Source: Sulfurimonas sp. SAG-AH-194-C21
GTDB lineage: Bacteria > Campylobacterota > Campylobacteria > Campylobacterales > Sulfurimonadaceae
DNA: 64,000 nucleotides
Reading direction: 5' to 3'
Assembly: GCF_029215985.1 (NCBI RefSeq)
Contig: NZ_JAEMVC010000002.1
Location: 1 to 64,000, forward strand
Notes under the pieces: model-generated
The model's input: the letters and a program-made list of their open reading frames with translations, nothing else
Told to the model about the DNA's origin: nothing
The model's database searches: none
Program-made: the position numbers and the translations under genes
Part shown: positions 42,985 to 46,690 of the stretch, in pieces
Layout of the letters: every line of letters begins with the position of its first letter
Position numbering within the stretch: position 1 is the stretch's first letter

Positions 42985-44109
42985 TTGTCTGATTTAACCC
43001 TAATCTTACTATCAGCTGGTAGTTCTAGCCGTTTTTCAATGGGTGTAAAAAAGCATTGGTTACGTATAAATCACCAGCCACTGTGGCAATTTGTAGCACA
43101 AAAACTCCAAAAAACAGAAAAATTCGTTAAGATAATTCTTGTCTCATCTGATGAAGATATAGCTTTTATGAAAAACTATGCAAATTTCACTTTTGTAAAA
43201 GGTGGAGCATCAAGACAAGAATCTTTAAAAAATGCACTTGCTTCAGTTGAGAGTAAATATGTGTTAGTAAGTGACATTGCTCGTGCATGTATTAGTGATG
43301 AGTTTTTAGAGCGAATAGTTTCACATAAAGGTAGTAGTGACTGTATTGTCCCCTACCTCAATGTAACGGATACTATTGTATATGAAAATGAGACTATAGA
43401 TAGAGATAAAGTTAAGCGAATTCAGACACCACAACTCTCTTTAGCAGATGTTTTAAGAGATGCTCTTGATACAAATGAAGAGTTTACAGATGAGAGTAGT
43501 GCTATAGTCGCCAATGGTGGGCAGCGTTCTTTTATCTTAGGTGACGAGGATGCCCATAAAATCACTTACATCAAGGATTTAAATAGTATTCCTTGCCTTG
43601 AAGCACCATCGAGTGATACTTTAAGTGGTAATGGTTTTGATGTTCATGCTTTTGACACGAAGGGTACAATGTGGCTTGGTGGAGTAAAAATCGACTCAGA
43701 TTATGGCTTTTTAGCTCATAGTGATGGAGATGTAGCGATTCACTCCCTCATAGATGCACTTTTAGGTGCAGCTGGAATGGGTGATATTGGTATGCTTTTC
43801 CCAGATAATGATGATAAGTATAAAGGGATAGACTCTAAAGAGTTACTTCAGATAGTTGTTACAAAACTAAACAGTTTTGGTTTTGTAATCATAAATGCAG
43901 ATATAACTATCGCGGCACAAAAGCCCCGTATTGGCAAATACAAGACTCAGATGAGAGAAGTTATTGCTGAAATACTTGGGATTGATAGAGCCAGAGTAAA
44001 TGTTAAAGCAACAACAACTGAAAAACTCGGATTTGTTGGAAGAGAAGAAGGTGTTGCAGTTACCTCAAATGCAAATTTAAAATATTTTAACTGGAAGATG
44101 ATAGGATAA
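42985..44109 (+). CDS. ispDF: Bifunctional IspD/IspF (MEP pathway)
   Basis: A 374-residue fusion. The N-terminal cytidylyltransferase part (about 1-205) has LLSAGSSSRFSMGVKKHWL; this has SSSRF where separate IspD has GxGxRm. The C-terminal cyclodiphosphate synthase part (about 215-374) has NGFDVHAF (zinc DxH), LAHSDGDVAIHSLIDALLGAAGMGDIGMLFPD, TTTEKLGFVGREEGVA. The fusion is typical of Campylobacterota and alphaproteobacteria. The product feeds isoprenoid synthesis. It begins at TTG 42985 behind TGGAGTGA. Confidence 0.95.
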   Translation: MSDLTLILLSAGSSSRFSMGVKKHWLRINHQPLWQFVAQKLQKTEKFVKIILVSSDEDIAFMKNYANFTFVKGGASRQESLKNALASVESKYVLVSDIARACISDEFLERIVSHKGSSDCIVPYLNVTDTIVYENETIDRDKVKRIQTPQLSLADVLRDALDTNEEFTDESSAIVANGGQRSFILGDEDAHKITYIKDLNSIPCLEAPSSDTLSGNGFDVHAFDTKGTMWLGGVKIDSDYGFLAHSDGDVAIHSLIDALLGAAGMGDIGMLFPDNDDKYKGIDSKELLQIVVTKLNSFGFVIINADITIAAQKPRIGKYKTQMREVIAEILGIDRARVNVKATTTEKLGFVGREEGVAVTSNANLKYFNWKMIG

Positions 44110-44110
44110 T

Positions 44111-45004
44111 ATGAAAATACTAATTATAGAAAACGAAGTTTATTTAGCACAGAGTATAGCAACAAAACTAGGTGAAATTGGTCATGTTTGTGAAATGTGT
44201 ACTTCTACAAAAGATGCGATTAGAAGTAACAACTATGATGTTGTATTACTCTCTACAAACATAAATGGTCAAGACTTTATTCCTGTGATAGAGACATTTA
44301 AAAGTTCTATCATCATACTTATGATTTCATATATTAGTAATGATACAGTTGCTAAACCTCTTGCTGCAGGGGCTAAGGACTACATACTTAAGCCCTTTAT
44401 GATAGAAGAGCTTATTCGTAAGATAAATCATTATCAAGATTATGAGAAGCTTAAACGCCGTACTGCTGCTTATGAAAAGTATCTTACGCATACATTTTTA
44501 AATGCACAACATGAAAAATCACTTGATAAAGTAGAACTTCCTCTTTTTGTGAGTTCAAGTTTCCAGAAGTATTCTGATGCTTTCGCTTTTGAATATGCAC
44601 AAAAAAATGATTTGCCAATACATTTTATCACACTTAGTAATTCTAAGTCTTTGGCTGAAGTTGAACTTCTACCACAAAACACTCTTATATATATTATCGA
44701 CTTTCAAGTGCTCAAGAAAAATGATAAAAAACACTTTTGTGACCTTATAGCTGGTAAACAAGTTATTATATCAAGTACTGAAAAGATAGATAGTGAAGAA
44801 GTAGTACATCCTATTTTAGAAATCAAAAATGAAAATAATGTCTTTGATAAGGGTGAGATTTTACCTATCGAAGATTATGTAAAATTTATAGTACGTAACT
44901 ATCAAGACAAATACCCAGATACAGAACTTTCAAAAAAACTCGGTATAAGTCGTAAAAGCTTATGGGAAAAACGTAAAAAATATGACATCATCAAGAAAAA
45001 ATAA
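44111..45004 (+). CDS. Atypical response regulator with Fis-type HTH, lacking the phosphoacceptor Asp
   Basis: A 297-residue protein. Residues 1-118 form a receiver fold: MKILIIENE at the start (the acidic pair reads Glu-Asn), and strand 3 is DVVLLSTNI, with Ser48 where the phosphoacceptor Asp should be. The conserved Lys is kept in ILKPF (Lys94). The middle (about 130-255) resembles the shape of a degraded NtrC-type ATPase domain, but no Walker A is present. The end (about 270-295, DTELSKKLGISRKSLWEKRKKYDI) is a Fis-like helix-turn-helix. It probably binds DNA independently of phosphorylation. It overlaps the following ATP-sulfurylase-like gene by 23 nt. Confidence 0.75.
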   Translation: MKILIIENEVYLAQSIATKLGEIGHVCEMCTSTKDAIRSNNYDVVLLSTNINGQDFIPVIETFKSSIIILMISYISNDTVAKPLAAGAKDYILKPFMIEELIRKINHYQDYEKLKRRTAAYEKYLTHTFLNAQHEKSLDKVELPLFVSSSFQKYSDAFAFEYAQKNDLPIHFITLSNSKSLAEVELLPQNTLIYIIDFQVLKKNDKKHFCDLIAGKQVIISSTEKIDSEEVVHPILEIKNENNVFDKGEILPIEDYVKFIVRNYQDKYPDTELSKKLGISRKSLWEKRKKYDIIKKK

Positions 45005-46172
45005 AACACTTTTTATAGATAAAGAAGCGGCCTCAGTACTAGAGCTTGTTGCAGATGGTCTTCTTTCACCTGTTACAAAACTCATGTGCGAAGCAGAGTC
45101 TAAACAAGTTCTAGAAACGGGACTTATAGATGGTAAATCATTTCCTTTTCCTTTTATACTAGCACCATCTGGTAAAAAAAATGAAGAGATAATCAGCTCT
45201 TTAAAAGTTGGCGAAGATATCATTTTACTCTCTTGTGGAGAAGAATTTGCAGTCTTACATGTAGACGAGACATTTCAAATAGACCCCCATGAAAGAGTAA
45301 AACATATTTACGGTACTGATGACTTAAGCCACCCCGGTGTTCAAGCTACAATGAAAAGACTCGGTTCATGGGCCTTAAGTGGAAAATACACACTTACTAA
45401 GACAACACCTAACAAGGGTAAAATTGATATTTTAAATGCCAAAAAAAGAGTTGATGCTAAACATACAAGCTCTTTAGTAATGGCAGCAAATCCACTACAC
45501 CGTGGGCATGAACGTCTTATCCGTCAAACTCTTGATAGCACTGATTTACTTGTAATTTTTCTACTTAAACCTTATGATAGTGCAAACATAAGTTATGAGA
45601 TTAGAAAAGAGGCTTTAGAATACTATCTCAACAACTTTTTACCAAAAAACCGTGTTATTGTTGTTCCTTTAGAAAATAGCTATATCTTTGCAGGTTATAA
45701 TGAAATCATTCTTGATGCTATTGTTGCAAGTAACTATGGTTGTGATAGACTCACTGTTGGTCGTAACCATGCTGGACTTGGAATGTTTTATGATTGTAAC
45801 TCAAACAAGTCTATTGTTGACCGTGTTGTTGGTATAGATATCGAGATTCAAATTGCGAGTGAATATGTCTACTGCGATCAGTGTACAACACTTGTGAGTA
45901 AAAACACTTGTCCTCATGGACAGCACCATCAAATTTCTTATCATTCAGATTCAATCCTTCAGCTTCTTGAAGCGGGGCTTTTGCCTCCTGCCGTTCTTGT
46001 GAGAAAAGAGATAAGTTCATTTTTACTTTCAAAACTTTATCCTGATAGATTTAAAAACTTAGAAAAACTATACTATGATACCTTTGCTACAAAAGGCTTA
46101 CTTGAAGAACATACTGAAAAAGATTTTTATCTTGAACTTATGAAGCTTTACCAAACTTCTTCTCTCACATAA
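44982..46172 (+). CDS. ATP sulfurylase (Sat)-like protein with altered active-site motifs
   Basis: A 396-residue protein with the Sat layout: an N-terminal PUA-like domain (about 1-155), a nucleotidyltransferase domain (about 160-325) and a zinc knob, Cys298, Cys301, Cys310 and His312. The ATP motif HxxH is present (NPLHRGHE, 170-177), but the preceding QTR that binds sulfate in ATP sulfurylases reads MAA (167-169). VGRDHAG reads VGRNHAG, and the SGTxxR motif after the zinc knob is replaced by SYHSDS. It has no APS kinase domain. Either it uses another substrate or it is a diverged paralogue; calling it sulfate adenylyltransferase outright is not supported. Confidence 0.75.
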   Translation: MTSSRKNKTLFIDKEAASVLELVADGLLSPVTKLMCEAESKQVLETGLIDGKSFPFPFILAPSGKKNEEIISSLKVGEDIILLSCGEEFAVLHVDETFQIDPHERVKHIYGTDDLSHPGVQATMKRLGSWALSGKYTLTKTTPNKGKIDILNAKKRVDAKHTSSLVMAANPLHRGHERLIRQTLDSTDLLVIFLLKPYDSANISYEIRKEALEYYLNNFLPKNRVIVVPLENSYIFAGYNEIILDAIVASNYGCDRLTVGRNHAGLGMFYDCNSNKSIVDRVVGIDIEIQIASEYVYCDQCTTLVSKNTCPHGQHHQISYHSDSILQLLEAGLLPPAVLVRKEISSFLLSKLYPDRFKNLEKLYYDTFATKGLLEEHTEKDFYLELMKLYQTSSLT

Positions 46173-46180
46173 GGACAACT

Positions 46181-46690
46181 ATGAACTGGTTTTTTCTAAC
46201 ACTTGGATATAGTGGACTTGCACCAAAAGCACCTGGAACAGTGGGAACATTAGTTTCTTTACCTCTTGGTATGCTTATACTTATCTACTTTGATACAAAC
46301 ACTCTCTTTTTAGCAACTATACTTATTACTCTCATAGCAATTAAAGCTATTAACAAGTACGAAGAGCTAAGTAAAACTCATGACTCTCAAAATATTGTTA
46401 TAGATGAACTTGTGGGAATGTGGATTGCCTTAAGTATCGCACCCGCACTTGGTGTTGGAATCAATGAAGTAACTAATCTAGAAAATGGTTTTTTAATCCA
46501 ATCTCTTTTAGCCTTTGTACTTTTTAGATACTTTGACATCACAAAACCCTCTATCATTGGTCGTATCGATCGAGAAGCTAAAGGTGGTGTTGGTGTTATG
46601 GGTGATGATATAATAGCAGGAGTGGCAGCTGGTATTTCTACTGCTGCTCTTTGGCAAGGCTACCTCTATTTTTCAGGATTATTAGTTTAA
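46181..46690 (+). CDS. pgpA: Phosphatidylglycerophosphatase A
   Basis: A 169-residue membrane phosphatase with GYSGLAPKAPGTVGTLVSLP (about 9-28), the acidic IVIDELVGMWIAL and RYFDITKPSIIGRID, and GVGVMGDDIIAGVAAG, which are the PgpA signatures. It dephosphorylates phosphatidylglycerol phosphate in phospholipid synthesis. It ends overlapping pyk, which converges on it, by 4 nt. Confidence 0.94.
   Translation: MNWFFLTLGYSGLAPKAPGTVGTLVSLPLGMLILIYFDTNTLFLATILITLIAIKAINKYEELSKTHDSQNIVIDELVGMWIALSIAPALGVGINEVTNLENGFLIQSLLAFVLFRYFDITKPSIIGRIDREAKGGVGVMGDDIIAGVAAGISTAALWQGYLYFSGLLV

Follow-up and report, generated by a model that had tools for sequence, protein, structure and literature searches.

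A phylum-wide ATP-sulfurylase-like protein of Campylobacterota lacks the sulfate-binding residues and is very probably not a sulfate adenylyltransferase

As far as the accessible portion of the paper on the Allochromatium vinosum ATP sulfurylase (Sat) structure goes (PMC3779200), the sulfate of APS is bound by the Gln and Arg of the QXRN motif (Gln199/Arg201) together with a main-chain NH, the Thr and Asn of the same motif bind the alpha-phosphate, and the GRD loop binds the ribose. In the same account, pyrophosphate is held by HXXH and the SGTxxR arginine (Arg365), APS is shielded by the GxxKxxD loop, and the zinc segment joins the adenine strand to the pyrophosphate helix. The zinc-type enzymes of Thermus thermophilus (1v47) and Methanothermococcus (8a8d) have three domains, a PUA-like N domain, the HxxH motif and a CxxC...CxH knuckle, all of which are shared by the protein described here, at 23-28% identity in structural alignments. 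CysDN, the other and unrelated type of ATP sulfurylase, carries the same annotation name as this protein (EC 2.7.7.4) but belongs to a different family.

The protein, here called SATL (ATP-sulfurylase-like), is encoded at 44982-46172 on the plus strand of the window, the 64,000-nucleotide stretch of Sulfurimonas sp. SAG-AH-194-C21 that was analysed (contig NZ_JAEMVC010000002.1, positions 1 to 64,000). Its open reading frame is intact, with an ATG start and 396 codons, and the minus strand beneath it contains many stops. All features described below are likewise on the plus strand. The conserved cluster to which SATL belongs begins with ispDF (42985-44109), named by homology and from its annotated Sulfurovum mangrovi neighbour, followed by a CemR/HP1021-type orphan response regulator (44111-45004), which overlaps the start of SATL by 23 nt. 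The gene for phosphatidylglycerophosphatase A, pgpA (46181-46690), begins 8 nt past the SATL stop. A promoter and terminator scan found promoter-like sites no more often than in shuffled sequences.

SATL was recognised by the Pfam ATP-sulfurylase domain PF01747 at 176.6 bits and, over residues 5-139 (44994-45398), by the PUA-like N-terminal domain PF14306 at 81.3 bits (cut-off 27). The NCBIfam models TIGR00339 (149.9 bits, cut-off 322.95), NF003166 (208.3 bits, cut-off 387) and NF004040 (95.1 bits, cut-off 669) all scored below threshold, and an hhalign comparison of SATL with canonical Sat gave a probability of 100. An AlphaFold2 model built on a 26-sequence family alignment (mean pLDDT 85.8) was matched best by 1v47 (Z 32.0, rmsd 2.4, 326 residues aligned) and also by 8a8d (Z 31.4), with PPAT structures at a Z of about 12 over about 150 residues. 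SATL is thus predicted by the model to adopt the three-domain Sat fold; a control fold of canonical Sat from six sequences had a mean pLDDT of 54.9, which is too low for comparison.

Like the HxGH nucleotidyltransferases, SATL combines a Rossmann-like fold with an HxGH-type motif, and its HxGH-type nucleotide loop is common to PPAT/NMNAT-type adenylyltransferases and to the C-terminal domain of citrate lyase ligase (CitC, PF08218/TIGR00124), where the match is local and covers about 50 residues. Citrate lyase ligase models matched 12 of 26 SATL proteins in Pfam and 17 of 26 in NCBIfam, and the Pfam match was found in none of the 14 canonical Sat proteins scanned. The SATL loop therefore appears to resemble those of organic-acid and cofactor adenylyltransferases more closely than that of Sat. 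There is no full-length relation to CitC (TIGR00124 28.3 bits, cut-off 262.1), and the likeness to citrate lyase ligase may simply come from the HxGH fold that the two have in common.

Active-site residues were counted against 15 canonical Sat sequences, seven from Campylobacterota and eight from plasmids. The SATL rows formed a 49-row alignment, which leaves out L071 (N-terminal part out of frame) and counts the frameshifted Sulfurovum mangrovi copy (L160), and 48-row and 184-row sets, which leave out both. The 184-row set gained 136 reading frames picked by the motif C.HG.HH, and some genomes are present in it twice. The initial annotation had stated that QTRNP reads MAANP and GRDHAG reads GRNHAG in this protein, that HxxH and the zinc knob are kept and that the SGTxxR segment is gone. 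The first three readings are confirmed. MAANP (residues 167-171; 45480-45494) has lost the contacts to sulfate and the alpha-phosphate, and the Gln and Arg of QTRN, found in 15/15 Sat, occur in 0/49 and 0/184 SATL rows, where these former sulfate-pocket positions are hydrophobic or small (Met/Leu/Ile and Ala). At GRNHAG (residues 260-265; 45759-45776), the GRD Asp is present in 15/15 Sat but in 0/49 and 3/184 SATL rows, and the GRD Arg in 15/15 Sat, 2/49 rows of the less redundant set and 83/184 of the wider one. The GxxKxxD mobile loop is also degraded (Gly 1/48, Lys 19/48, Asp 2/48).

The HxxH motif reads HRGH (residues 173-176; 45498-45509). Its first His is present in 41/49 rows and, in the wider set, is His in 156, Asn in 26 and Thr in 2 of 184, and its second His is found in 46/49 and 180/184. 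The adjoining Glu177 is invariant (49/49 and 184/184), and R178 is a family-specific position with Arg or Lys in 183/184. The zinc ligands C298, C301, C310 and H312 lie in a knuckle that continues into a family-specific segment with H315, H316 and Y320 (residues 298-320; 45873-45941), and they are present in all 184 rows, most of them motif-picked, as well as in 49/49 rows that were not motif-picked. Four loci failing C.HG.HH were dropped before the 184-row counting and inspected separately; these keep C298, C301, C310, H312 and H315, with Asn (three) or Gln (one) at position 316. The SGTxxR segment, in turn, is gone as a motif, but it has been replaced and not deleted. Its slot is occupied by HSDSIL (residues 321-326; 45942-45959), the Arg is found in 15/15 Sat but only 2/49 and 7/184 SATL rows, and the Ser, Gly and Thr positions are kept in 1/184, 1/184 and 4/184. 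The sequence now conserved there is [HN][SA]x[S][IL], and ahead of it stand a His that never varies and a Tyr that rarely does. SGTxxR corresponds to a second phosphate motif that is common to all HxGH nucleotidyltransferases, and SATL has lost it. The counts indicate that motif loss is a family-wide property and not a matter of chance.

Sat has 69 invariant columns (at least 14/15); SATL has lost 28 of them (at most 5/48 rows) and kept 10 (at least 44/48), the latter including H176, E177, D188, N251, G260 and R341. New near-invariant positions have appeared at F193, G313, H315, H316, H317, Y320, S345, L349 and R356; of these, H315 is invariant and Y320 near-invariant across the family, and H316 and H317 are not strict in Sulfurimonas. 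SATL also carries a C-terminal extension that is absent from canonical Sat (residues 352-396; 46035-46169), with near-invariant G372, F382, Y383 and L389 and a conserved terminal LYQTxSLT-type tail. Columns 382, 383 and 389 are gaps in 15/15 canonical Sat, and solved ATP sulfurylase structures align to SATL mostly up to residue 351-358. The best conserved parts are domain III and the C-terminal tail, not the cleft. Compared with canonical Sat, SATL is without the sulfate, APS-shielding and SGTxxR residues family-wide and has gained the H315/Y320 segment and the extra C-terminal region.

The two groups also part in phylogeny. A tree run with Sat, as the initial annotation had proposed, separated 15 Sat from 48 SATL rows by a 100/100 branch, in a tree whose root is unresolved and whose Sat rows were picked for their motifs and annotation and not on the basis of assays. 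SATL thus lies outside the canonical Sat clade, which bears out the earlier suggestion of a diverged paralogue. Among 397 Campylobacterota genomes, PF01747 matched in 307, and SATL is present in about 305, a count that rests on a score band with part of the matches read individually. One match (G377) was rejected as a spurious hit within a GAPDH-like frame, and one genome (G122) was left out because it has canonical Sat only. Matches of at least 240 bits, the canonical type, were found in 7/397 genomes. No internal stops occurred in the SATL matches listed across this sample, and dN/dS was 0.04-0.08 in ten comparisons among Sulfurimonas-type genomes, pointing to strong purifying selection. The closest named relatives of the window copy are mostly Sulfurimonas (best three 92-94% identity), and the best 80 of 522 confirmed stretches are likewise mostly Sulfurimonas, with a few assigned to Sulfuricurvum, Helicobacteraceae, Campylobacterales and Epsilonproteobacteria. 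A plasmid search gave Sulfurovum mangrovi as the sole close SATL match (48%), followed in the ranking by canonical Sat, at up to 32-33%. This S. mangrovi copy (L160, 2262-3440) is frameshifted close to the C-terminal end, and its annotation gives a sulfate adenylyltransferase of 345 aa. As judged from these sequences, SATL is one vertically inherited clade found across Campylobacterota, and the gene, beyond what had initially been noted, is a phylum-wide core gene and not an isolated odd copy.

The order ispDF-cemR-SATL, usually followed by pgpA, was found in most loci with enough flanking sequence. The 23-nt cemR/SATL overlap (44982-45004 in the window) was present in 18/19 measurable diverse loci and 40/40 Sulfurimonas-type loci, or 58/59 together, with 49 further loci outside the count as their alignments were too short at the joint. 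An overlap fixed to the base points to old translational coupling. SATL is missing from genus g19 and several other genera, and CemR was found in 20/22 genomes where SATL was not. SATL lies away from cemR in group f7 and in one f9 genome. In f7 (L044, L050) its neighbours are nfo, which encodes endonuclease IV, and a small gene that in L044 weakly matches the HP0838 lipoprotein family; in f9 (L033) it adjoins polA and pgpA. These two neighbour patterns (nfo; polA/pgpA) have no clear theme, and a function could not be read from the relocated copies.

A link between CemR and SATL through cysteine gain was considered and set aside. CemR has a mean of 5.0 Cys in 20 sequences from SATL-less genomes as compared to 2.6 (n=114), but the excess comes mostly from g19 (5-6 Cys, with the H. 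pylori-type six-cysteine pattern in most copies), and three other SATL-less genomes, g31, g32 and g35, have 2, 4 and 1 Cys, with 3-5 in four f7 genomes. Separately, CemR orthologues (L198-L210, L187-L196) range from 1 to 6 Cys across the phylum, which bears on CemR redox sensing.

Sulfate assimilation was surveyed in 55 SATL genomes. CysN scored at least 325 bits in 25, of which 22 exceed the curated cut-off and three fall just short of it, and CysD-type PF01507 matches exceeded 100 bits in the same 25, with none above 66 bits in the other 30. APS kinase exceeded 80 bits in 18/55, and 27/55 had no strong match to CysD, CysN or APS kinase. SATL presence does not track CysDN, CysH or APS kinase, and since 30/55 SATL genomes are without CysD and CysN, SATL does not follow sulfate assimilation. 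This distribution rules out that pathway as the SATL partner: SATL is not needed as a sulfate activator in assimilators, and it does not feed assimilation in genomes that lack it. The genome of the window (88% complete) carries CysN together with a CysD-type match on C43, and it has a second APS kinase on C45. A canonical sat gene elsewhere in the genome, which the initial annotation had suggested looking for, was found on contig G000:C17 (281 bits, with QTRNP, GRDHAG and SGTQIR). There it lies with an APS kinase and a phosphatase, presumably CysQ-like, within a surface-polysaccharide-type cluster (L032, 7324-19629), an arrangement that suggests PAPS supply for sulfated glycans in Sulfurimonas. 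A short pyruvate-kinase homologue adjoins canonical Sat in four genomes (L032 8131-9102; L035, L036, L037).

Taken together, SATL is very probably not a sulfate adenylyltransferase. The function best supported by sequence is that of a repurposed nucleotidyltransferase with a non-sulfate organic acceptor; the other-acceptor idea of the initial annotation thus stands as the leading but unproven reading, and we give the mechanism as a whole an even chance. SATL would be an ATP sulfurylase paralogue whose job has been exchanged. Nucleotide would still be bound in the old Sat cleft, the sulfate pocket would be relined with Met/Leu/Ile and Ala, and the nucleotidyl group would be moved onto a carboxylate- or phosphate-bearing organic acceptor instead of sulfate. 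A zinc-anchored His/Tyr segment beside the phosphate site would replace the role of the SGTxxR arginine, with H315, H316 and Y320 placed relative to the cleft by inference from published Sat topology. Retention of the HxxH-Glu core and of the zinc ligands supports this reading, and the Asn or Thr at the first HxxH His in 28/184 rows counts against retained catalysis. The wider proposal is that SATL represents a new class of enzyme built on the scaffold of ATP sulfurylase. In such a nucleotidyltransferase a His/Tyr segment anchored by zinc would clamp the phosphate, the acceptor would be organic, and the reaction would serve a core Campylobacterota pathway outside sulfur assimilation. This proposal is plausible but tentative, its chances falling somewhat short of even.

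As SGTxxR is lost and the second HxxH His is absent in 4/184 rows, catalysis may be gone altogether. SATL could then be a pseudoenzyme, one that would bind a nucleotide or metal and work in sensing, as a scaffold or in regulating a partner, for example the co-translated CemR or PgpA. We consider this possible rather than probable, and it is the main rival since the cleft is less well conserved than domain III and the tail. The degradation of QTRN, GRD and SGTxxR alike and the exact overlap with cemR at 58/59 measurable loci fit such a role, as does the report, in the part of PMC11334517 available, that it is not known what CemR senses. A partnership with CemR, however, is at odds with the persistence of CemR in most SATL-less genomes and with the copies located apart from cemR in f7 and f9, and a pure scaffold would not require the nearly invariant H176 and E177.

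The remaining alternatives keep SATL closer to Sat or deprive it of any role. Canonical Sat also accepts molybdate, according to the accessible part of PMC10322725, and SATL could by analogy use another inorganic oxyanion, or hydrolyse ATP with it, but this is very unlikely given that it would call for the same Gln/Arg oxyanion site, which SATL has lost and whose substitutes are hydrophobic or small. That SATL has remained an ATP sulfurylase, one whose active site is unusual, is likewise very unlikely. Overall homology (PF01747 at 176.6 bits) speaks for it, and the arginine supplied from a neighbouring loop that the initial annotation had raised does have a candidate in the SATL-specific R178 beside HxxH; both the Gln and the Arg contacts, however, are missing in every row, the APS-shielding loop is lost, and the NCBIfam Sat cut-offs are missed widely (149.9 vs 322.95; 208.3 vs 387). 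Nearly half of the surveyed genomes (27/55), moreover, lack strong matches to CysD, CysN and APS kinase alike, and the window's genome already has both CysDN and canonical Sat. Loss of many catalytic positions might also mark a decaying duplicate without function, a reading of negligible probability that is contradicted by the selection pattern, including the low dN/dS, the invariant new positions, the lack of stops inside the listed matches and the presence of the gene in about 305/397 genomes.

Published accounts may already include SATL under the name of Sat. Campylobacter jejuni Cj1609, annotated as sulfate adenyltransferase, is the likely orthologue by gene order and annotation. It lies downstream of IspDF (Cj1607) and Cj1608, as stated in the accessible part of PMC4435418 and as seen at SATL, and Cj1608 is described as the HP1021 homologue in the part of PMC11334517 available. 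The sections of PMC10077673 at hand label Cj1609 as sulfate adenyltransferase under purine and sulfur metabolism, place it in the core of four species and score it as essential in C. jejuni and C. coli, with the gene not called essential in C. lari and C. hyointestinalis. The cat gene of the transposon used there has a putative terminator, and the downstream pgpA (Cj1610) was without insert and FBA-essential in another screen (PMC3229698, in part), so polarity on pgpA could explain the essentiality of Cj1609. Possible polarity and species differences thus weaken the essentiality call at face value, and Cj1609 is not mentioned in the main text, as far as it was accessible, of two other C. jejuni essential-gene papers (PMC5557513, PMC3229698). 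Excerpts of further papers describe a 'dissimilatory sulfate adenylyltransferase' in Nautilia (PMC10092268), count Sat in Sulfurimonas species (PMC4584964, PMC7952632) and, for an epsilonproteobacterium from an aquifer, report a lone 'sat' (PMC4674564). These readings presumably refer to SATL, although some Sulfurimonas do carry canonical Sat. The initial warning that the protein would be misread as Sat is borne out by the RefSeq record of S. mangrovi and, by inference, by the Nautilia, Sulfurimonas and C. jejuni papers. A partial literature search, with subscription journals outside its scope, found no account setting SATL apart from Sat.

A gene found in roughly three of every four genomes sampled from the phylum thus carries an annotation for an activity that it very probably lacks, its likely C. 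jejuni member scores as essential, and published sulfur-metabolism accounts appear already to rest on it. Reconstructions of Campylobacterota sulfur metabolism based on PF01747 need a QTRN and SGTxxR filter. Identifying the substrate of SATL would put a name to a core enzyme in a group to which major pathogens and deep-sea primary producers belong. It would also reveal in what way an enzyme called intolerant of substantial variation in the accessible portion of PMC3779200 can take on a new role.
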